Assembly: GCF_001625015.1 (NCBI RefSeq)
Contig: NZ_LVWJ02000014.1
Location: 496,001-560,000, forward strand
Source of the DNA: Lewinella sp. 4G2
GTDB taxonomy: Bacteria > Bacteroidota > Bacteroidia > Chitinophagales > Saprospiraceae
DNA length: 64,000 nucleotides
Direction: 5' to 3'
In this document: positions 14,707 through 61,593 of the stretch, piece after piece
How the letters are laid out: every line of letters begins with the position of its first letter
Position numbering within the stretch: the first letter of the stretch is position 1
Notes under the pieces: generated by a model
Told to the model about the DNA's origin: nothing
The model's input: the letters and a program-made list of their open reading frames with translations, nothing else
Databases searched by the model: none
Translations under genes and position numbers: made by a program

Positions 14707-14790
14707 TGGCGCGACTTCATTATTAATCTGTCAACGCTATTTGGTTAGGCACACTAAAATCTAAAATCAAACTTCAAACGTCTTTTCAAT

Positions 14791-14933
14791 CCGGACGCTC
14801 GCGGGACCTCCTGCGTCGGACGCCACGAGGACCTAATGAAGTGTGTAAGGTTCTAACTCTTTACCTACCCCCAAGGACCTCGTAGCGTGGTCAATTCGCG
14901 CGCAGCAAGAATTGAACTCCTGCGAGCGTCCGG
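14791..14933 (+). repeat. 143-bp inverted-repeat element, copy 2
   Basis: Same ends and length as the copy at 13130. The copy is followed by a C-rich run and a 46-bp spacer that contains TCTAAAATCTAAAATCAAAC, also present before copy 2. Confidence 0.85.
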
Positions 14934-14979
14934 CCCCCCCGTCTAAAATCTAAAATCAAACTTCAAACGTCTTTTCAAT

Positions 14980-15122
14980 CCGGACGCTCGCGGGACCTCC
15001 TGCGTCGGACGCCACGAGGACCTAATGAAGTGTGTAAGGTTCTAACTCTTTACCTACCCCCAAGGACCTCGTAGCGTGGTCAATTCGCGCGCAGCAAAAA
15101 TTGAACTCCTGCGAGCGTCCGG
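14980..15122 (+). repeat. 143-bp inverted-repeat element, copy 3
   Basis: Starts exactly 189 bp after copy 2, so element plus spacer repeats in tandem. The unit is cut off right after the terminal GCGAGCGTCCGG. The following 154 bp up to the helicase gene carry no recognisable feature and presumably hold its promoter. Confidence 0.85.
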
Positions 15123-15276
15123 CCAGAGAACCAAGCGCTAGCAAAATTTAATTCCCCACCTCCCTTCCTAGTAATCAGCCCCTTACGACGGCTGACTTTC
15201 AGATCGGCCAAAAAACCGCTCCGGAAGCCAACTAAAGGGAGCGCTCAGACATTGAAAAGGGGTTAACCCCAACTGA

Positions 15277-19427: not shown

Positions 19428-19801
19428 GTTTTCGACAAGGAGTTAAAGGAGATAAAGAGGGATAAGGGGAGCGCTGTCGCGCCTGCTTCTTAAAACTCTC
19501 TACCGCCTTGTACATCTTTGCGAAACCAGATATGCAATAAGTAGCTCGAAACTAGCCACACTTGTTTCGCAAAGAAGCGTAAGACGGCTAAGACGAAAGA
19601 GAAGACTGGCACCGTGTCTTGCTTCTTAAACCTCTCTACCGCCTTGTACATCTTTGCGAAACTGGAGACGCCGTAAGTAGCTAAGAACTGCCAAACTTGT
19701 TTCGCTAAGAAGCGTAAGACGGCTAAGACGAAAGAGAAGACTGACGTTACGTGTGCCTAGCTTCTTATCCGCCTTTCCCTCCTTATCCTTCTTGTCGAAA
19801 A
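19428..19801. repeat. Chained purine/pyrimidine hairpin array between SNF2 and rsmG
   Basis: Three purine-rich arms (for example TTTCGCAAAGAAGCGTAAGA near 19564, repeated with one change near 19698, and TTTTCGACAAGGAG at 19428) alternate with pyrimidine-rich arms (CTTCTTAAA...TTTGCGAAA near 19486 and 19622, and CTTCTTATCC...CTTGTCGAAAA near 19761). Each arm can pair with a neighbour, and the outermost arms pair with each other. The unit period is about 136-139 bp. The purine arms are built from 7-9-bp words ending in AAGA. The same core recurs at 42594-43318. No coding potential. Confidence 0.75.
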
Positions 19802-35965: not shown

Positions 35966-36052
35966 GTGCTTTGGTATTTTGGTGCTTTGGTGCTTTGGTG
36001 CTTTGGGCTACCGCGCGTTGGAGCAGCGGCAGCCCAAAATACTAAAGCACCA
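35966..36052. repeat. Octamer tandem repeat with hairpin
   Basis: Three or four copies of TGGTGCTT, interrupted once, then GGGC and an inverted right arm (GCCCAAA...GCACCAA). The same octamer is at 38196-38235 and 38973-39003. Confidence 0.75.
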
Positions 36053-36057
36053 ACGCA

Positions 36058-36969
36058 CTACTTAACTTTCGCGGTAACGGGGTACATCAAACCCTCATAC
36101 TTGTGCAGCACCGCCTTCACGCTGCCCACCACCACGGGTGATTCGATGAGGACGGGGATCTTGTTCTGGTCGTCCGTTACGAAGATTTTCATTTCGTCGC
36201 CTTCTTTGAAGACGTCGCCGGCAATGAGTTGGGGGCTGAATTCGCGGGTGTTGAATTGGCCGACGCCCTTCACGTCCGTGCCCTTGCGCGCGCCGAGGTA
36301 CTTGACCTGGAGGGGGTAGATCTTGCGGTCCATCATGATCTTGATGGGGATTTCCTGGTTGACTTGCATGTCCTCGTACTTCAGGTTGCGCGCCCAGTAC
36401 ATGGTGGAAATGAGGTCGTGCATGCAGCCGTCAAAATCAATGGTTTCGCTCTTCAAATCGTCGCGCGTCCGGCCGCGGGCGCTGACGGCTTTGTGGTCGA
36501 TCTGGTCAAAAGTCGTGCGGTCGTAGCGCAGGTAGCCGCCCTCCTGCACGTCCTTGATGTGGATGGCCGGCAGCAGCGTTTCCTTGTCGATGTAGCTCTC
36601 GTAGCGGTCGCGCACCTTGTAAAACCACTCGTAGCTTTCGTAGGTCGTGCCCGTCACCGTGATGTGGTAAAATTCGGGCAGTTCGTTCACCTGGAAGACG
36701 ACCTCGCCCGCGCTCAGCCACACAAAATTCCAGTTGTAGTAGAGCTTGTAGGTGATCTTTTCGCCGGCCAAAAAAGTATCGTTATCCGTATCGCAAGCGT
36801 CCTGCACGTTCATCGGCGGATGCCAGTTGGGCGCTCGCGCGGGTGCGGGGGAAGTGGGAGAGTAAAACGCCGGATTGAGCCCAAAACCATAGCCCGTCGC
36901 GGACGCCAAAGACCCACCTCCAAACAGGAAAAGGGCCAAAAAAACAGCGATGGATAGCATTTTAGACAT
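36058..36969 (-). CDS. DUF3108 periplasmic protein
   Basis: A 303-aa exported protein with a signal peptide (residues about 1-24). The mature part matches DUF3108: FLAGEKITYKLYYNWNFVWLSAGEVVF near 65-92, then FYKVRDRYESYIDKETLLP and a beta-rich C-terminus. DUF3108 proteins are thought to fold like lipid- or ligand-binding envelope barrels; the role here is unknown. A proline-alanine linker at residues 38-46 (SPAPARAP) is encoded by one of the GC-rich words. Confidence 0.82.
   Translation of the reverse strand: MSKMLSIAVFLALFLFGGGSLASATGYGFGLNPAFYSPTSPAPARAPNWHPPMNVQDACDTDNDTFLAGEKITYKLYYNWNFVWLSAGEVVFQVNELPEFYHITVTGTTYESYEWFYKVRDRYESYIDKETLLPAIHIKDVQEGGYLRYDRTTFDQIDHKAVSARGRTRDDLKSETIDFDGCMHDLISTMYWARNLKYEDMQVNQEIPIKIMMDRKIYPLQVKYLGARKGTDVKGVGQFNTREFSPQLIAGDVFKEGDEMKIFVTDDQNKIPVLIESPVVVGSVKAVLHKYEGLMYPVTAKVK
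36829..36847 (+). repeat. GC-rich 18-bp dispersed word, in CDS
   Basis: Reads GGGCGCTCGCGCGGGTGCGG, a variant copy, antisense to the DUF3108 gene. It encodes the proline-alanine linker APARAP there. Confidence 0.55.
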
Positions 36970-40234: not shown

Positions 40235-42508
40235 ATGGTCAAACAGCTTCTTCTTTTCCTGTTCGTTCTCGTCAGTGGCGGCGCCTACGCCGACTGCCCC
40301 GCCCCACCCCCCTACTACGGCTACAAATTCCTTAACCCGGAACTGCTCGATTACGACAGCGAGCTCTACCCCTTCTACGAAGCCTTCCGCGCCGACTACG
40401 CCGACCCCGCCCTACTCGCCGAGAACCTGCGCGAGCACGACAACCTGACCGAGTGGTACGAGCGGTACTGCGAACAGGTGGAGATCGACGACATCCGTGG
40501 GCTGCTCTACGGGAACACCGCGCCGGTGCTGAAGCGGATCATGGACCTCAGCGTCAACCCCAAGGCGAAGCCGGCGGACCTGCCGAATAAGTACCGCAAC
40601 AACGCCTTCGCCCGTCACCTCGTCAGCTACCGGTGCACGGAGGTGGCGCAGTACCTGTACTACGCCAAGCGGGTGGAGCCCTACGTCGTGCGGCGGAAGA
40701 AGACCTTTGCCACCCAGGCCTCGGCCAAGGCGGAAATGACCTCGCTGATCGATGAGGGGCTGGACCACTTTAAGGGGGCCGAGAGCCACTACGTCCGGCT
40801 GCGCTACGCCTACCAGCTCATCCGCCTGGCCCACTACCTGAAGGAGTACCAGTACGTGTTGGAGCTCTACGATTACCTGATGCCCAAGATCGCCGCGGAC
40901 CCGAGCGTGCTCTACCACTGGATCGAGGGCCACCGCGCCGGCGTGCTGCAGACGTTGGGGGATTACCCGACCTCCGCCTACCTTTTTAGCCGCGTTTTCG
41001 AGCAGTGCGTCAGTTGCCGGGAGAGCGCCCACCGGAGCTTCCGGATCCGCTCCGACGAAGAGTGGCGCGCCGCACAACTCCTCTGCGCCAACGACGGGGA
41101 ACGGGCGATGCTGCACGTCCTTCGCGCCCAGGATGGCCGAGCCCACCTCGTCCATGAAATGGAAGCCATCTACCGGCTGGAACCCGCCTCCCGCACCCTC
41201 GAACCTCTGCTGATGCGGGAACTGCTGGAACTGGAACGCGACCTGCTCGGCCTCGACTTCAACCCCCGCAAGGCCAGCAACAAACGCTACGCCCGGCGCC
41301 CCCGCCCGGAAGCCGGTAAGCGCTTAGTGGAGTTGCAGGGCTTCGTCAACACCCTCGTCGACGAAGGGAAGACGGCCCGGCCGGATCTCTGGCTCTTCGC
41401 CCGCGCCACCCTCGAAATACTGGGGGGAGATTATTACTACGCCAACGAATCCTTCGCCCAGCTCCGGCAGCGAAGCGAGAACGACAGCATCCTGGCCCAG
41501 GTGGCCATCCTCCAGGAAGTGAGCGACCTGCTCGCCCTCGACTACGTGGACGACGAAGTAGAACGCCGTTACTATACGCTGCTCAAGGACCGGTCCCTAC
41601 GCGAACGCTACCCCTACCTCAAACCCCTCGTCAACGACAAACTCGAGGTCGTCTACGCCCGGCGCGGCCAACCGGGGAAGGCCGCCCTGCTGCGGTACGG
41701 TTTCGACGCCATCGAGAAGCACCCCCAGCTCGACCTCATCCAAGAACTGATGGAGATGACGGACAGCCTTTCCGGCAATTCCTTCGACCGCGGCCTCCTC
41801 GCCGAACGGGTGGGCGACAACGCCGTGGCCGACCTCCACCACCTCACCGGCCTATATTACCTGCAGCGGGGGCAGTGGGAGATCGCGCTGAGCCAGTTCA
41901 AGAAGATCCCCGCGGCGCAGCGGGATGCTTACGGCCGGTACGCACCCTTCGTCCGCCAGTTTCACGACCGGGTGAATTACGTCCCGGACGCCAGCTACGC
42001 GACCTACAACAAGGTTGAACTGCTGGAAAAACTCCTCAGCCTGGAGGACGAGGCCCGCAAAACGGAGAACGACACCCTCGCGGCCCGCAATTTCTTCAAC
42101 ATCGGCTTAGCCCATTACAACCTGAGCTACTACAGTTACGCCTGGAGTTTTGGGGATGCCTTCCGCTCCTCCACCAGCGCGGCCCGGGCGGCAAAATCCC
42201 CGCCACCGGGGGACGTCTTTTCCCACCCCAACGCCCCCCTCGGCAACCTGGAGAATTTCAACATGGACCGCGCCCGCTATTACTTCGAACGCGCCCTCAC
42301 CCGCGCGCCGACCCGCGAAGCCGCGGCCCTGGCCACTTATTACGCCGCTAAGGTGGAACGCAACCAGCATTACGCCCGGGGGCGGCCCGGCGGGCAGCGG
42401 CCTTTTGGCTATTTTCGGCAGCTGAAGAATGACTATGCGGATACGGAGTTCTACGCTTACGCGATTCGGGAGTGCCGGACGTTGGCTTGGTTTGCTAGTC
42501 GGGAGTAG
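40235..42508 (+). CDS. Large orphan secreted protein with helical repeats
   Basis: A 757-aa protein with a signal peptide (residues about 1-19, ending GGAYAD). The rest is rich in Tyr, Arg, Leu and Ala, alpha-helical, and shows TPR-like packing (for example LRYAYQLIRLAHYLKEYQYVLELYDYLM and FFNIGLAHYNLSYYSYAW). No catalytic motif and no T9SS domain. Starting at 40235 gives a clean signal peptide. I do not recognise the family; a periplasmic scaffold or envelope-associated TPR protein is a reasonable guess. Confidence 0.75.
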   Translation: MVKQLLLFLFVLVSGGAYADCPAPPPYYGYKFLNPELLDYDSELYPFYEAFRADYADPALLAENLREHDNLTEWYERYCEQVEIDDIRGLLYGNTAPVLKRIMDLSVNPKAKPADLPNKYRNNAFARHLVSYRCTEVAQYLYYAKRVEPYVVRRKKTFATQASAKAEMTSLIDEGLDHFKGAESHYVRLRYAYQLIRLAHYLKEYQYVLELYDYLMPKIAADPSVLYHWIEGHRAGVLQTLGDYPTSAYLFSRVFEQCVSCRESAHRSFRIRSDEEWRAAQLLCANDGERAMLHVLRAQDGRAHLVHEMEAIYRLEPASRTLEPLLMRELLELERDLLGLDFNPRKASNKRYARRPRPEAGKRLVELQGFVNTLVDEGKTARPDLWLFARATLEILGGDYYYANESFAQLRQRSENDSILAQVAILQEVSDLLALDYVDDEVERRYYTLLKDRSLRERYPYLKPLVNDKLEVVYARRGQPGKAALLRYGFDAIEKHPQLDLIQELMEMTDSLSGNSFDRGLLAERVGDNAVADLHHLTGLYYLQRGQWEIALSQFKKIPAAQRDAYGRYAPFVRQFHDRVNYVPDASYATYNKVELLEKLLSLEDEARKTENDTLAARNFFNIGLAHYNLSYYSYAWSFGDAFRSSTSAARAAKSPPPGDVFSHPNAPLGNLENFNMDRARYYFERALTRAPTREAAALATYYAAKVERNQHYARGRPGGQRPFGYFRQLKNDYADTEFYAYAIRECRTLAWFASRE

Positions 42509-42593
42509 TTGGTAGTTTCTAGTAGGCAGTTGCTAGTTGCTAGTTGGGGGAGTAATGGCTTTGGGGCTTTGCTCTATTTAAGCACTAAATGGC

Positions 42594-43318
42594 CTGATAG
42601 CTGCCCACGCATATTTCGCAAAGAAGAATTAGATGGTTAAGACGAAAGAGAAGAATGATACCGACTTCTCTCCCCTCTCTATCGCCTTAAACTTCTCTGC
42701 GAAACTAATAACGCAGCGGAGCTAAAATTCACACCCTGAGCTGATAGCTGCCCACGCATATTTCGCAAAGAAGAATTAGATGGTTAAGACGAAAGAGAAG
42801 AATGATACTGACTTCTTCCCCCTCTCTATCGCCTTAAACTTCTCTGCGAAATTAATAACGCAACGGGGCTAAAATTCACACCTTGAGTTGTTTGCTGTCC
42901 ACGCATATTTCACAAAGAAGAATTAGATGGTTAAGACGAAAGAGAAGAATGATGGTTTCTCTCCCCTCTCTATCGCCTTAAACTTCTTTGCGAAACCAAT
43001 AACGCAGCGGGGCTATAATTCACGTCTTGAGCTGTTTACTGCCCACGCATATTTCGCAAAGAAGAATTAGATGGTTAAGACGAAAGAGAAGAATGACACT
43101 GACTTCTTCCCCCTCTCTATCGCCTTAAACTTCTCTGCGAAATTAATAACGCAACGGGGCTAAAATTCACACCTTGAGTTGTTTGCTGTCCACGCATATT
43201 TCGCAAAGAAGAATTAGATGATTAAGACGAAAGAGAAGAATGATACTAGCTTCTTAATCCTCTCTATCGCCTTAAACTTCTTTGCGAAACCAATAACACA
43301 GCCGAGCCAGCTGTAAAA
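42594..43318. repeat. Five-unit purine/pyrimidine hairpin array
   Basis: Five tandem units with a period of 145-147 bp, starting near 42594, 42741, 42887, 43032 and 43179. Each unit has a purine arm TTTCGCAAAGAAGAATTAGA ending GAGAAG and a pyrimidine arm ending CTTCTCTGCGAAA or CTTCTTTGCGAAA, which pair as a long hairpin. Spacer text between units varies slightly. The first 85 bp (42509-42593) also holds a short AGTTGCT heptamer repeat. The gap 42509-43423 has no gene. Confidence 0.85.
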
Positions 43319-43423: not shown

Positions 43424-44305
43424 ATGGAACTCAAGATCACCAACTTAGAAAAGACCTACGCCAACGGCGTCCACGCCATCAACAACTGTAACCTGACGAT
43501 CCCGCGGGGGATGTTCGGGCTACTCGGGCCCAACGGCGCGGGCAAATCCAGCCTCATGCGGACGATCGCTACCCTGCAGGAAGCCGACTCCGGTAGCATC
43601 ACCCTGGGCGACATCGACGTGCTGAAGGACAAGGACGCCATCCGCCGCGTCCTCGGTTATTTGCCGCAGGAGTTCGGGGTCTACCCGAAGGTCTCCGCGG
43701 AAAATATGCTCGATCACGTCGCTACCCTTAAGGGCATCACCAACCGGAAGGAGCGGAAGGAAACCGTCGCCTTTCTGCTGGAGCGCGTCAACTTGCTCGA
43801 TAAACGGAAGAACAACCTCGGCACCTTTTCCGGGGGCATGAAGCAACGCTTCGGCATCGCCCAGGCCCTCCTCGGCAACCCCCAACTCATCATCGTCGAC
43901 GAGCCGACGGCCGGCCTGGACCCGACGGAACGCAACCGCTTCCACAACCTCCTTAGCGAAATCGGGGAGAACACCATCGTTATCCTCAGTACCCACATCG
44001 TGGAGGACGTCACCAACCTCTGCAACGAGATGGCCATCATCCGCGCCGGGCAGGTGATCGCTACCGGGCAGCCGGGCGCCCTCGTCAACGAAATGCAGGG
44101 CCGCATCTGGAGCAAGCTCATCGACAAGGCGGATCTGTACCGCTACGAAGCCGAATTGCAGGTCATTTCTACCCGCCTCAAGGGAGGCCGGACGCAGATC
44201 CACGTCTACGCCGATACGCAGCCCGACGCCACTTTTGATGCCGTGCAGGCCGACCTGGAGGACGTCTACTTCACCCGCATCGCCGGTGGCGCCGTCCCCG
44301 CCTAA
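43424..44305 (+). CDS. ABC transporter ATP-binding protein
   Basis: A 293-aa ABC ATPase. Walker A GPNGAGKS at residues about 35-42, the signature FSGGMKQR near 134, Walker B IIVDEPTAGLDP near 155 and a switch histidine in STHIVED. The ATG at 43424 fits; a longer frame from 43322 adds residues unlike the family. It pairs with the permease-peptidase 48 bp downstream and presumably powers it. Substrate unknown. Confidence 0.93.
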   Translation: MELKITNLEKTYANGVHAINNCNLTIPRGMFGLLGPNGAGKSSLMRTIATLQEADSGSITLGDIDVLKDKDAIRRVLGYLPQEFGVYPKVSAENMLDHVATLKGITNRKERKETVAFLLERVNLLDKRKNNLGTFSGGMKQRFGIAQALLGNPQLIIVDEPTAGLDPTERNRFHNLLSEIGENTIVILSTHIVEDVTNLCNEMAIIRAGQVIATGQPGALVNEMQGRIWSKLIDKADLYRYEAELQVISTRLKGGRTQIHVYADTQPDATFDAVQADLEDVYFTRIAGGAVPA

Positions 44306-44353: not shown

Positions 44354-47300
44354 ATGCTCAACATTCTGAAATTCGAACTGCGCTACCGCATCGGCCGGCC
44401 CGCTACCTGGGCCTACTTTGGCCTCCTCGCCTTCGGTGGCTTTTTGCTCGCGGCCAACAACGCGCTCGTGAGTAGCGAAAAAGCCTTCGCCAATTCCGCC
44501 TACAACATCACCATCCTCATGATGGTGTTCAGCATCTTTTCGGCGCTCATCGCCTCGGCTGTCATGGGCGTGCCCGTTTATCGGGACATCGAACACGGCG
44601 TCAAGAACTACTACTTCTCCTACCCGGTCGGCGAAAAAGAATACCTGCTGGGTCGTTTCCTGGGGTCCTTCCTTACGCTGATGCTCATCAGTCTCGGGCT
44701 GGTCGTTGGGCTCGTGGTGGGGTATTCGTTGGGGCCGGTCCTGGGTTGGGAGGAGGCCGAACGCTTCGGGCCGCACCGCTGGGGTGCCTACCTGAATGGC
44801 CTCGTTTTCTACCTCTGGCCGAACCTCCTGTTTGTCGGCACGATCTTCTTCTGCCTGGTGGCCCTCACCCGCAAGATCTTCGTCAGCTACGTCGGTAGCA
44901 TTCTCTTTTTCGTCGGTTACCTCGTATCCCAGACGCTTACGCAAGACCTGGATAATGGCCTCGTTGCCGCCCTCGTTGATCCCTTCGGTTTGGCGGCCTG
45001 GTCCGAAGCCACCAAGTACTGGACGCCCGGCGAGCAAAACGAACTCATTGCGCCCATCACCGGCAACCTCCTGCTGAACCGCCTTTTCTACCTGGCGCTC
45101 TCGGCGCTCATCCTCGTCTTCACCCTCCTCCGCTTCGATTTCCAACGCTTCCTCGGGGGCGCCAAGGCCAAGAAGATCGTGGACGTGGGCGCTGTTCCCG
45201 ATACAATGCGGGACAAGTTGGGCGCTCGCGCAGGTGCGGAGAAATTGGACGGGAGAACTCCAGCAATGGGCCCTCCACCGGCGGTACGACAAAGCTTCAA
45301 CAACGGGGTCTACTTCCGGCAGATGCTGAGTCAGTCCTGGATCGAGTTCAAGTCCATTCTGCGTGACCCTTACTTCCTGGCCATCATCACGGCGGCCATC
45401 CTCTTCCTTTACCTGGACGCCCACCTGGGCAACTCCACCTACGGGACGCCCTCCCTACCGGTGACCTACTACATGATCGAGGCCAAAAACAGCACTTACA
45501 TCCTGCTCGTGATGATCATGCTGGTGTTCTACACCGGTGAGGTCGTCCACCGCGACCGGACGGTCAAGTTCAACCAGATCGCCGATGCCTTACCCATCCC
45601 GAACTGGACGCTCTTCGGCGGTAAGCTGCTGACGATGACCGGCGTCGCCTTCCTCCTCGCTACGATGGTCTGGGTGATCGGGGTCATCCACCAGACCGTG
45701 GAGGGCTACTTCAACTACGACTTCGGACAGTACTTCACGGACCTCTACCTGCTCACCTTCCCTCAGTACCTGGTGCTGATGTCGCTGGCCTTCGTCGTGC
45801 ACGTCCTGGTCAATAAGAAGTTTCTAGGCCACGTGATCGCCATCGGAATCTACGCCGCCGTGCTCTTCATTCCTGGATTACTCGACATTGATTACAACAT
45901 GATCCTGTTCGGTAGCCGCCCGGGGTACATCATTTCGGACATGAACGGGTTTGGTCACTTCATTAGTGGAGTAACCACCTTTAATCTCTACTGGTTAGCC
46001 TTCGGTGGCATGCTGCTCGTCGGTGCCCTGTTGCTCTACGCCCGGGGCACGGAGGATGCCTGGAAAAGCCGCTTCCAACTGGCCCGCCAACGGGTAGGCT
46101 GGCGACCACTGGCCGTTCTCGGCGCTTCCGTCGCGCTCTTTGCTTTGACCGGCTTCACCATCTTCAACAACGTCAGCGTCAAGAACCAGTACGTTGGTTT
46201 TGAGACCTCCCAGAACGAGCAGGAACGGTACGAGCGGACCTACCGCCGGTACCGAACCCTTAACCAACCCAAGATCACGACGGTAGACTACCAGGTCGAC
46301 ATCTTCCCCGAAGACCGGGCCGCGGATGGCCGGGCGACCTACACCGTCCACAACTTCGGGGAGACACCCATCGATACGATTGTGTTCGACCTTTCGTACG
46401 ATAAGACAGTATTCAACATCAACGAATTCACCCTCGGTGGAGAGGCACCCGAGCTGGTCAAATTCGACGAGGCCGTTAACTTCATGATCTACAGTCTAGA
46501 CCGACCCCTGGCCGTCGGTGACTCGGCGGAAATGGTCCTGGACGTCCGGCTGGACTTCGAGGGTTTCGCCAACGAAGGCTACCAGAGTGCCATCGTGGAG
46601 AACGGCACCTTCCTCAACTCCGGCCTCTTCCCCTCCTTCGGTTACTCCGGGGGCAGCGAGATCGGTAGCAACCAGGAACGCCGGAAGCGCGGCCTCGAGA
46701 TCCGGGATTACGGCCTGCCGGCTCCGGACGACGCCAAGGGCAAGTCCACCCTCCTCTTCGACGCCAACGCTTACCTGGTGGACTTCACCGCCACCATCAG
46801 CACCGCGCCCGACCAGATTGCCATCGCGCCGGGAAAACTCGTCCGCGAGTACGAGCGGGACGGCCGCCGCGTCTTCGAGTACCAAAACGAAGGGAAGATT
46901 CAGAACTTCTTCAACATCTCTTCGGCCCGTTACGAGGTGCTGGAGGAAATGCACGCCACCCCCACGGGGCAGTCCATCAAACTGCAGATCTTCCACCACC
47001 CGGAGCACGACCGCAACCTGGACCGGTACATGGACGCGATGAAGCGGTCACTGGATTACTACACGGAGAACTTCTCTCCCTACCAATTTGACCAACTACG
47101 GTTGCTGGAGTTCCCCCGTTACGCCAGCTTCGCCCAGTCCTTCCCGAATACGGTCCCTTACGCCGAGTCCTTCGGCTGGGTGGCCGACTTCTCCAACCCC
47201 GACGATACGGACTACGCCTTTACGGTGACGGCCCACGAGGTCGCGCACCAGTGGTGGGGCCACCAGATCACGCCTTCCGCCACGCGGGGTGCCAACCAGC

Positions 47301-48031
47301 TTTCGGAAACGATGGCCGAGTACAGCTCCCTGATGGTGATGAAGGAACGCTACGGCGAAGCTGCGATGCCTCAGTTCCTCAAGTACGAGCTGGACCGCTA
47401 CCTCAGCTCCCGCGCTGGAGAAAGCAAATTTGAAAAGACGCTGCTGGACAATGACGACCAGTCCTACGTCTGGTACCGGAAGGGCGCCATGATCATGTAC
47501 ACGTTGGCGGATTACGTCGGGGAGGACAAGCTCAACGCCAGCTTCGCCCGTTTCCTCGACGAGTTCGGCCAGCGGGACGAGCCCCCCTTCCCCACTTCGC
47601 TGGATTGGTACGCCGCCATCCAACGCGCCGTGCCGGATAGCCTCCAGTACTACCTCCGGGAAAGCTTCGAGGGCATCACCCTGTACGAAAACCGGGCGCT
47701 CGAGGCTACCTCCGAACCGAAGCCAGGCGAGGAAGGAAAGTACCTCGTCACCCTTAAGGTCGACACCCGCAAGATCACCTACGACGGGGAAGGCGAAGAG
47801 ATCGACCGCCCCACGGAGCGCAGCCTGATCGAGATCGGCGTCTTCGGCGAGGACACGACGAACGAAGACGGATTAGAGGTCAAAAACGCCCTCTACCTAG
47901 AAAAGCGCTGGCTGACGCCAGGTGAACACACCATCACCATTGAGGTGGACGAGGAGCCGGTGGAGGCGGGCATTGATCCGTATAATAAGTTGATTGACCG
48001 CGTTAGTGACGATAACGTTGTTAGTCTTTAG
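44354..48031 (+). CDS. ABC-2 permease fused to M1 aminopeptidase
   Basis: A 1225-aa fusion. The first 590 residues hold two ABC-2 type permease modules with six or so helices each, separated by a loop (about 285-315). Residues from 620 form a periplasmic or external M1-family metallopeptidase: HEVAHQWWGHQ near 958-968 (HExxH) with the second metal glutamate in QLSETMAEYSS 18-20 residues later, plus an N-terminal beta domain. The usual GAMEN exopeptidase motif is not obvious. Such fusions occur in Bacteroidota. It is coded with the ATPase at 43424, so the peptidase may act on the exported or imported peptide. Confidence 0.9.
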   Translation: MLNILKFELRYRIGRPATWAYFGLLAFGGFLLAANNALVSSEKAFANSAYNITILMMVFSIFSALIASAVMGVPVYRDIEHGVKNYYFSYPVGEKEYLLGRFLGSFLTLMLISLGLVVGLVVGYSLGPVLGWEEAERFGPHRWGAYLNGLVFYLWPNLLFVGTIFFCLVALTRKIFVSYVGSILFFVGYLVSQTLTQDLDNGLVAALVDPFGLAAWSEATKYWTPGEQNELIAPITGNLLLNRLFYLALSALILVFTLLRFDFQRFLGGAKAKKIVDVGAVPDTMRDKLGARAGAEKLDGRTPAMGPPPAVRQSFNNGVYFRQMLSQSWIEFKSILRDPYFLAIITAAILFLYLDAHLGNSTYGTPSLPVTYYMIEAKNSTYILLVMIMLVFYTGEVVHRDRTVKFNQIADALPIPNWTLFGGKLLTMTGVAFLLATMVWVIGVIHQTVEGYFNYDFGQYFTDLYLLTFPQYLVLMSLAFVVHVLVNKKFLGHVIAIGIYAAVLFIPGLLDIDYNMILFGSRPGYIISDMNGFGHFISGVTTFNLYWLAFGGMLLVGALLLYARGTEDAWKSRFQLARQRVGWRPLAVLGASVALFALTGFTIFNNVSVKNQYVGFETSQNEQERYERTYRRYRTLNQPKITTVDYQVDIFPEDRAADGRATYTVHNFGETPIDTIVFDLSYDKTVFNINEFTLGGEAPELVKFDEAVNFMIYSLDRPLAVGDSAEMVLDVRLDFEGFANEGYQSAIVENGTFLNSGLFPSFGYSGGSEIGSNQERRKRGLEIRDYGLPAPDDAKGKSTLLFDANAYLVDFTATISTAPDQIAIAPGKLVREYERDGRRVFEYQNEGKIQNFFNISSARYEVLEEMHATPTGQSIKLQIFHHPEHDRNLDRYMDAMKRSLDYYTENFSPYQFDQLRLLEFPRYASFAQSFPNTVPYAESFGWVADFSNPDDTDYAFTVTAHEVAHQWWGHQITPSATRGANQLSETMAEYSSLMVMKERYGEAAMPQFLKYELDRYLSSRAGESKFEKTLLDNDDQSYVWYRKGAMIMYTLADYVGEDKLNASFARFLDEFGQRDEPPFPTSLDWYAAIQRAVPDSLQYYLRESFEGITLYENRALEATSEPKPGEEGKYLVTLKVDTRKITYDGEGEEIDRPTERSLIEIGVFGEDTTNEDGLEVKNALYLEKRWLTPGEHTITIEVDEEPVEAGIDPYNKLIDRVSDDNVVSL
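45220..45237 (+). repeat. GC-rich 18-bp dispersed word, in CDS
   Basis: Reads GGGCGCTCGCGCAGGTGC in the loop between the two permease modules and encodes Gly-Ala-Arg-Ala-Gly-Ala. Confidence 0.65.
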
Positions 48032-48035
48032 TCGG

Positions 48036-48081
48036 GTAGTAGGGTAGTCGGGTAGTACGTACTACCCGACTACCCTACTAC
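48036..48081. repeat. Perfect 46-bp palindrome of octamers
   Basis: Two 23-bp arms with no loop, built from 8-bp words such as GTCGGGTA and GTAGGGTA. It lies between the fusion gene and pnuC, 21 bp before the pnuC ATG. It could act as a terminator or cruciform. Confidence 0.85.
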
Positions 48082-48101
48082 GATACTACGATACTACAAA
48101 T

Positions 48102-52182: not shown

Positions 52183-52189
52183 CTTTGCA

Positions 52190-52254
52190 GTCGGGTAGTA
52201 GCGTAGTCGGGTAGTCGGGTAGTACCGCACCACCCGACTACGCTACTACCCGAC
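52190..52254. repeat. 23-bp-arm hairpin of octamers
   Basis: Arms 52190-52212 and 52232-52254 are perfectly complementary; both are made of 8-bp words GTCGGGTA and GTAGCGTA. It lies between the unknown protein and rsmI, 13 bp before the rsmI ATG. Confidence 0.85.
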
Positions 52255-52267
52255 TACCCGACTACCC

Positions 52268-60762: not shown

Positions 60763-60835
60763 TAGTCTACAGTCTATAGTCTTTAGTCTGTAGTCCTGGC
60801 GTGACTGAAGACTATAGACTACAGACTATAGACTA
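60763..60835. repeat. Heptamer hairpin (TAGTCTA family)
   Basis: Left arm of 7-bp words TAGTCTA, CAGTCTA, TAGTCTT, TAGTCTG and an inverted right arm of GACTATA, GACTACA. Lies between yqeY-like and hisIE genes. Confidence 0.75.
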
Positions 60836-61527: not shown

Positions 61528-61593
61528 TAGTCTACAGTCTTTAGTCTGTAGTCTGTAGCGGCGGCCTGACTATAGACTACAGACTGTAGACTA
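61528..61593. repeat. Heptamer hairpin (TAGTCTA family)
   Basis: Left words TAGTCTA, CAGTCTT, TAGTCTG, TAGTCTG; right arm GACTATA, GACTACA, GACTGTA, GACTA. Lies 18 bp upstream of the hisIE start codon. Confidence 0.75.

Follow-up and report, generated by a model that had tools for sequence, protein, structure and literature searches.

What is the run of repeated hairpins that lies between two genes of Lewinella sp. 4G2, and how did it arise? The locus occupies positions 42594-43318 of the window, the 64,000-nt stretch of DNA that was analysed as a whole. A first-pass annotation had described it as five tandem hairpin units of 145-147 bp with purine and pyrimidine arms. The five-unit array is real, as confirmed by reading of the sequence, by TRF, by an inverted-repeat check and by fold z-scores, and it is bigger and more regular than a plain terminator requires, as had been proposed. 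The unit length holds approximately for four units, of 144-147 bp (147, 147, 144 and 147), but not for the last one, which is shorter and matches unit 1 over 123 nt at the DNA level. The array and its surroundings comprise the following features:

19429..19801, + strand: second family array in the window, 15 nt behind a stop codon and with the arm order B> A< A> A< A> B<
40235..42508, + strand: upstream gene, 757 aa, with its stop codon 104 nt before the first arm
42613..42705, + strand: hairpin unit 1 (purine arm 42613-42653, pyrimidine arm 42665-42705)
42706..42759, no strand: first spacer, with clear similarity to those in the sibling array C14:896127-897031
42760..42852, + strand: hairpin unit 2
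42907..42996, + strand: hairpin unit 3, with the head TTTCACAAAG
43051..43143, + strand: hairpin unit 4, whose whole repeat is 97.3% identical to repeat 2
43198..43290, + strand: hairpin unit 5, whose pyrimidine arm is the joint-best match of the arm model (tied with one other)
43424..44305, + strand: downstream gene, an ABC transporter ATPase (PF00005), starting 133 nt past the array

Each unit contains an imperfect inverted repeat of 91 nt (88 nt in unit 3), and the hairpins are separated by spacers of about 54 nt. When one unit is scored as an inverted repeat, its arms measure 40 nt and are 73% complementary. The purine arm reads TTTCGCAAAGAAG in four of the five units and TTTCACAAAGAAG in unit 3, while the pyrimidine arm ends in CTGCGAAA in units 1, 2 and 4 and in TTGCGAAA in units 3 and 5. 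RNA fold z-scores for four stretches of the array were -4.8 and -5.4 on the two strands of unit 1, and -2.8 and -3.3 for the others. The GC content is 42% in the array versus 58% in the window. Searches of the upstream 757-aa protein against Pfam (E 1e-5) and NCBIfam (E 1e-3) gave no match. Degenerate TAGTTGC words follow immediately on the stop codon of its gene (42506-42546), ahead of the array.

The internal similarities of the array bear on its growth. TRF reports positions 42600-43302 with a period of 147, 4.8 copies and a score of 1133, and also a period of 291 with 2.4 copies and a higher score of 1201. Repeats 2 and 4 are 97.3% identical, compared with 95.2% for repeats 1 and 2 and 87.8% for repeats 3 and 4. 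The preference of TRF for the 291-bp period, together with the identity of repeats 2 and 4, suggests that the array may have grown by duplication of a two-unit block. This is only partly borne out, as repeats 3 and 5 are 81.0% identical, not above the value for repeats 1 and 5; the last repeat lies partly outside the homology.

The genome-wide search for the arm that the first-pass annotation had proposed revealed a dispersed family. Unit 1 gives 40 DNA matches in the 5.2-Mb genome of the strain. The head pattern TTTCGCAAAGA occurs there in 55 copies versus 1 for its reversed-pattern control, and a second head, TTTTCGACAAG, in 38 copies versus 4 for the reversed control. Arms selected by regular expression (head with up to two changes, purine content of at least 72%) gave 142 hits, 9 of which were set aside as chance, and 82 arms entered the alignment. 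The arm encompasses 41 nt: TTTTCG(CA/AC)AAG-RRG is followed by three copies of a degenerate 9-nt word, NNN-RAG-RNG, and conservation among the 142 hits drops after position 41. Columns C5, G11, G14, G23 and G29 are invariant in the 82 aligned arms. The earlier description of 7-9-bp words ending in AAGA was right about the AAGA words, but the period is 9, as the 142 arms match themselves at lags 9 and 18 with values of 0.51 and 0.50 versus 0.24-0.39 at the other lags between 3 and 24. An arm model built from sequence only gave at least 147 matches in this genome; the number is a lower bound because only 150 candidates were scored.

Among the genomes searched, the family is restricted to this one. 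At E<=0.001 the arm model has no match in 39 relatives. At E<=0.01 two of 40 genomes match, the second of them through a single partial hit with E 0.0096. In a sample of 120 genomes of the taxonomic family, which overlaps the 39 relatives and was searched with stricter filters at E<=0.001, scoring 54 candidates per listed genome, only the genome of the strain itself matched, with none in the other 119. The 147-bp unit, searched as DNA, was likewise found in this genome alone (1 of 40); conservation of the array as plain sequence in relatives, which the first-pass annotation had held would speak against its view, is thus not seen in this set. The pattern TTTCGCAAAGA by itself was matched in 54 of 60 genomes, at most in 16 and 12 copies outside the genome of the strain (controls 4 and 4).

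Several other origins were considered and rejected. The array is unmatched among 72,556 plasmid records and 50,697 phage records, which argues against a phage or plasmid origin; two viral-contig hits to one arm pattern were dropped as they lie, by eye, inside one protein-coding sequence, and the second arm pattern gave no viral-contig hits. A known RNA family was discarded, since the 10 weak Rfam matches, up to E 5, include none that reaches the gathering score. Of 133 arms, 117 are open in the frame with AAG/RNG codons (17 stops among 1729 codons), versus 52 and 17 in the two remaining frames. A coding origin was nevertheless rejected, because the open frame probably reflects mostly word composition and an in-frame TAG occurs in the purine arms of the array at 42594-43318. 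No description of the family was recognised in the open-access literature, in searches with terms other than the 41-nt arm itself.

To describe the sites, 48 fetched stretches and the window were scanned, arms less than 350 bp apart were merged into one site, and repeats from overlapping loci were removed. The scan yielded 163 arms in 43 sites, or 156 arms after removal of overlaps; seven arm-model hits in the control correspond to reversed sequence that still holds reversed arms. Seven of the 44 places fetched for head words have no arm (L092, L093, L094, L098, L101, L102 and L117), and the first six of these armless places, L092 included, all lie inside a long ORF. The typical element is about 90-110 bp long and consists of a 41-nt arm, a loop of 5-27 nt and a second, different arm in inverted orientation. 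Steps from one arm to the next are > < in 54 cases, < > in 34, > > in 19 and < < in 6. In 2000 shuffles of orientation within sites, the > < doublets averaged 29.7 and never exceeded 40. Inverted doublets able to form a hairpin, with loops of 5-27 nt, are present in 26 of the 43 sites, and the 17 sites that have no > < doublet include 6 single arms.

The two heads are unevenly distributed. At the 20 sites that contain both, the TTTTCGACAAG type occupies 27 of 40 outer ends and only 8 of 37 inner arms. Eleven hairpins have two CGCAAAG-type heads, and in nine of these the arms are of opposite type, with one tie and one same-type pair, according to a consensus that was written by hand from these same arms and makes some assignments narrow. 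At one locus (L111:2717-3052) a 237-bp tandem duplication spans, by eye, one gene's end, the element and the beginning of the gene that follows.

The elements are extragenic and lie near the 3' ends of genes. With a simple codon-usage gene caller, 154 of the 156 arms overlap no called gene; one exception shares 37 nt with the 3' end of a 242-aa ORF (L048, where the flank is tabulated as 975 nt owing to a cut-off), and the other lies within a weak 33-codon ORF (L112). Fifteen sites are situated between convergent genes, 21 between genes of the same direction and 7 between divergent ones, two of the 43 sharing one intergenic region. Flanks that face a 3' end measure 30 nt or less in 28 of 51 cases, versus 3 of 35 for flanks towards a 5' end (Fisher p 8e-6). 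Twenty proteins, 19 of them direct neighbours of sites, were compared with Pfam: the neighbours include chorismate synthase, TyrRS, SSB, a GidB/RsmG methyltransferase and a MoxR-type ATPase, and 4 of the 20 have no match. The earlier description of the surroundings as an accessory patch finds no support in these neighbours, and every one of the 21 genomes in the genus set, the own genome included, has a match to the upstream gene.

The closeness to stop codons could alternatively reflect selection for a function at the 3' end. The elements would then be RNA structures under selection, standing in for ordinary terminators either as terminators themselves or as hairpins that block exonucleases, a reading that we consider unlikely. 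It is favoured by folding: on one strand or both, z is below -2 for 48 of the 54 hairpins, with mean z of -3.8 and -4.1 for the two strands, so the stems beat shuffled sequence. The foot of the stem points the other way. It reads TTTTCG...CGAAAA on both strands (82 arms and sites read), and with T before and A after the stem, no U-tract follows it, which speaks against a canonical intrinsic terminator. Neither strand is favoured, as the sense strand folds better in only 6 of 10 one-direction loci (p 0.36), and seven divergent sites and six single arms do not agree with a role at 3' ends.

The pairing of the two arms also departs from what is expected of a structured RNA. In 29 non-redundant hairpins, the identity between arms at the 22 variable columns is 0.445, versus 0.503 when partners are swapped within type, and 4999 of 5000 permutations equalled or exceeded the observed value. 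When G-U pairs are included, pairing at the variable columns amounts to 0.596 and 0.588 on the two strands versus 0.636 and 0.635 after swapping, with 2987 and 2999 of 3000 permutations at or above the observed values in these hairpins. No sign of compensatory base changes between arms was seen in the 29 hairpins. That the arms of one hairpin pair worse than swapped ones is unexpected for a "hairpin", and, seen on both strands, it counts against selection for a folded 3' end; the stems nevertheless fold better than shuffled sequence. The deficit may come partly from the two arm types, which have opposite polarity at some sites.

In a different explanation, a nucleoid or RNA-binding protein would read each arm linearly, as a row of binding sites spaced 9 nt apart, the inversion would serve both strands and imperfect pairing would be kept to prevent the arms from folding up. 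The invariant columns C5, G11, G14, G23 and G29, the drop of conservation past column 41, the persistence of single arms and the opposite types in 9 of 11 hairpins (by the hand-written consensus) would all fit such a reading. No candidate protein emerged, however, the family was found at 43 sites with no match in relatives, and the two arm types of opposite polarity may account for part of the deficit; we regard this explanation as improbable, and somewhat more so than that of selected 3'-end structures.

The same places in relatives were inspected for traces of the family or of other hairpins. Proteins related to the upstream one were found at 7 loci, in Neolewinella, uncultured Lewinella, another Lewinellaceae genome and one uncultured Saprospirales, which marks the host as Neolewinella-like. 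The ABC ATPase was found beside the gene only in the own genome (tblastn, loci reaching about 1.5 kb). Behind the upstream gene, some relatives have different hairpins, by eye, either built of words (L218, L221) or GC-rich (L225); hairpins of other sequence at the same position, as in L218 and L225, would be in line with a selected RNA structure. A purine word arm begins right after the TyrRS stop codon in L197, again by eye. In the first 100 nt behind three genes, z < -2 was obtained at 2 of 17, 5 of 16 and 2 of 17 loci, against 1, 0 and 2 for coding controls (17, 16 and 17 loci kept of 20, 19 and 20 after exclusion of truncated or wrong-frame ones). So few strong folds leave a conserved 3'-end hairpin at these three genes unsupported and weigh against the RNA reading.

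Chorismate synthase was found in all 21 genomes. In the nearest relative (G019, locus L174; 91% identity, the highest value), the pair formed by this gene and an M13 peptidase is kept, according to shared sequence at the far end. No arm is seen by eye between the two genes, making this a syntenic empty site, and the gap holds instead a different, shorter purine/pyrimidine inverted repeat. It is the single syntenic empty site known, and loss of an element is possible there.

Comparison with known repeats places the family nearest, by layout, to the REPINs, which are inverted doublets of REPs (PMC3116915), and to the BIMEs. Shared features are the inverted doublet with a spacer, the capacity to form a hairpin, extragenic dispersal and the occurrence in clusters and as singlets. 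The family differs in that its arms are made of purine words that are not self-palindromic, and in that no RAYT link was found. According to PMC3733652, REPs of the GTAG and CGTC superfamilies are situated between convergent and unidirectional genes, at less than 20 bp from the 3' ends; some of their families are species-specific, and CGTC REPs have no dedicated transposase. The present family resembles them in its closeness to 3' ends, its species specificity and the lack of a dedicated transposase, and differs in having no tag, a hairpin of about 100 nt and arms of 9-nt words. No unpaired GTAG or CGTC tag was found at one end, the head consensus of the 82 arms being TTTTCG, and the arm is not the 20-40-bp self-palindromic unit of a REP. 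The selected arms are 72-94% purine over columns 9-44 (the selection demanded at least 72%), which would make self-pairing of one arm hardly possible. Because the tag, the RAYT link and the self-complementary unit are all lacking, the family is not filed as REP, and its exact anatomy (41-nt arm, 9-nt words, invariant columns) falls outside the REP definitions of the cited papers.

Mobilisation by a RAYT or IS200 transposase was explored and rejected. The own genome has 6 matches to Y1-type transposases, and no arm scoring >=18 was found in the stretches around them; the best sub-threshold score is 11.7, apparently in coding sequence, and a site (C14:2701342) lies 3.3 kb from one match. Four are clear IS200/Y1-type genes (L158, L159, L160 and L161) with inverted repeats of their own that are unlike the arms. 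These four score higher with the IS200 model than with the RAYT model, all fall below the NCBIfam cut-off for RAYT and one falls below that for IS200. A cognate RAYT gene flanked by the repeat was thus not seen among the 6 matches.

MITEs are short, non-coding elements with inverted ends, a target duplication and a parent element. The family is similarly short and non-coding with inverted ends, but the ends make up nearly the whole element, no parent element is known, and no target duplication is detectable (mean 1.1 nt versus 1.09 permuted, 20 sites). A looser parallel is offered by the TAACTGA-type intergenic heptamers, which also occur in some Bacteroidetes and which PMC4679880 describes as exact direct repeats; in the main host most of them lie a short way upstream of start codons. 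They share with the family short words between genes, whereas the family consists of degenerate 9-mers, mostly in facing pairs and mostly near stop codons.

On balance we favour, with modest confidence, the view that the array arose when one member of a lineage-specific, REPIN/BIME-like family of non-coding extragenic inverted doublets multiplied locally. In this scheme doublets would be copied from site to site as units, probably via a folded single strand that leaves no target duplication, by a machinery presumably supplied in trans, for which no candidate gene was found. Units would then multiply by slippage or unequal crossing-over, and elements would be retained behind stop codons, where an insertion would do no harm or even be of slight use, by placing a hairpin at the 3' end of an mRNA. 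Tandem repetition is seen again in the sibling array (C14:896127-897031), which comprises six doublets and one lone arm. The unit and part of the spacer are matched there at 83-88% identity over up to 138 bp, and a further, shorter piece at 79%. The arm model allows such families to be counted, and the present one opens direct tests of how such repeats move and of whether they shape mRNA 3' ends.

The shared stretch between the two arrays also bears on the idea that short purine words expanded independently at each site by neutral slippage, with no transposition. Other word-built hairpins, of 7-8-mers, in the window and the genome lend it some plausibility. Unrelated sites, however, share the length of 41 and the invariant G columns outside the searched head, and up to 138 bp are shared by two arrays. 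Given the shared columns and the fixed length, this account is largely disfavoured, and we hold it to be very unlikely.

Word-built hairpins of other sequence are nevertheless common. In the window, five inverted repeats score >=20, all of them intergenic and built of words, and the hairpins of the present family score lower. Other loci of the genome (328 kb) contain six more, and for 5 of these the distance to a stop codon is at most 7 nt. In relatives' loci (84 kb), 2 of 5 repeats scoring >=18 are built of words, and shuffled sequence gave none. The earlier remark that CGCAAAGA-type words recur in bacterial genomes holds for other Bacteroidota but not for the own genome, which lacks the exact pattern: CGCWAAGRCGCWAAGRCG was found in 13 of 148 Bacteroidota genomes, at 30 places versus 1 for the control, and 0 times here. 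Ten of these loci (L162-L171), compared by eye, resemble the family in a similar TTTCTCGCAAAG head, in AAAGA words and in single and inverted arms. The CGCAAAGACGCTAAG words differ in their period of about 8, in head and in length, and have 0 matches in the own genome, so the likeness falls short of established homology. No paper on four CGCAAAGA-type strings was found in the open-access literature. Genes of GxxExxY or S23 type, which we presume from L164 to accompany CGCAAAGA words, are not suggested by any of the 20 Pfam-scanned proteins (19 direct site neighbours).

The family might represent an extragenic element of a new class, made of heterotypic inverted doublets with fixed 41-nt arms of 9-nt words that are read linearly and avoid mutual pairing. 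Similar hairpins of other words behind stop codons, in this genome and in some relatives, would then make it one fast-changing, general 3'-end system of Bacteroidota; we give this broader proposal only a small chance.

Further repeats were noted in the window. Near-perfect hairpins of TAGTCGGG octamers lie at 48029-48088, where the hairpin includes the stop codon of gene 44354-48031, and at 52189-52255, starting 7 nt past a stop; the TAGTCGGG words contain GTAG, the tag of one REP superfamily. Intergenic hairpins of TAGTCT-type heptamers are situated at 60763-60835 and 61528-61593, and one with GGTGCTTT octamers at 35982-36058, similar GGTGCTTT words being present near some family sites (e.g. 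L053 and L097). Positions 14754-15124 hold a near-perfect 189-bp tandem duplication (TRF, 2.0 copies, 99%).
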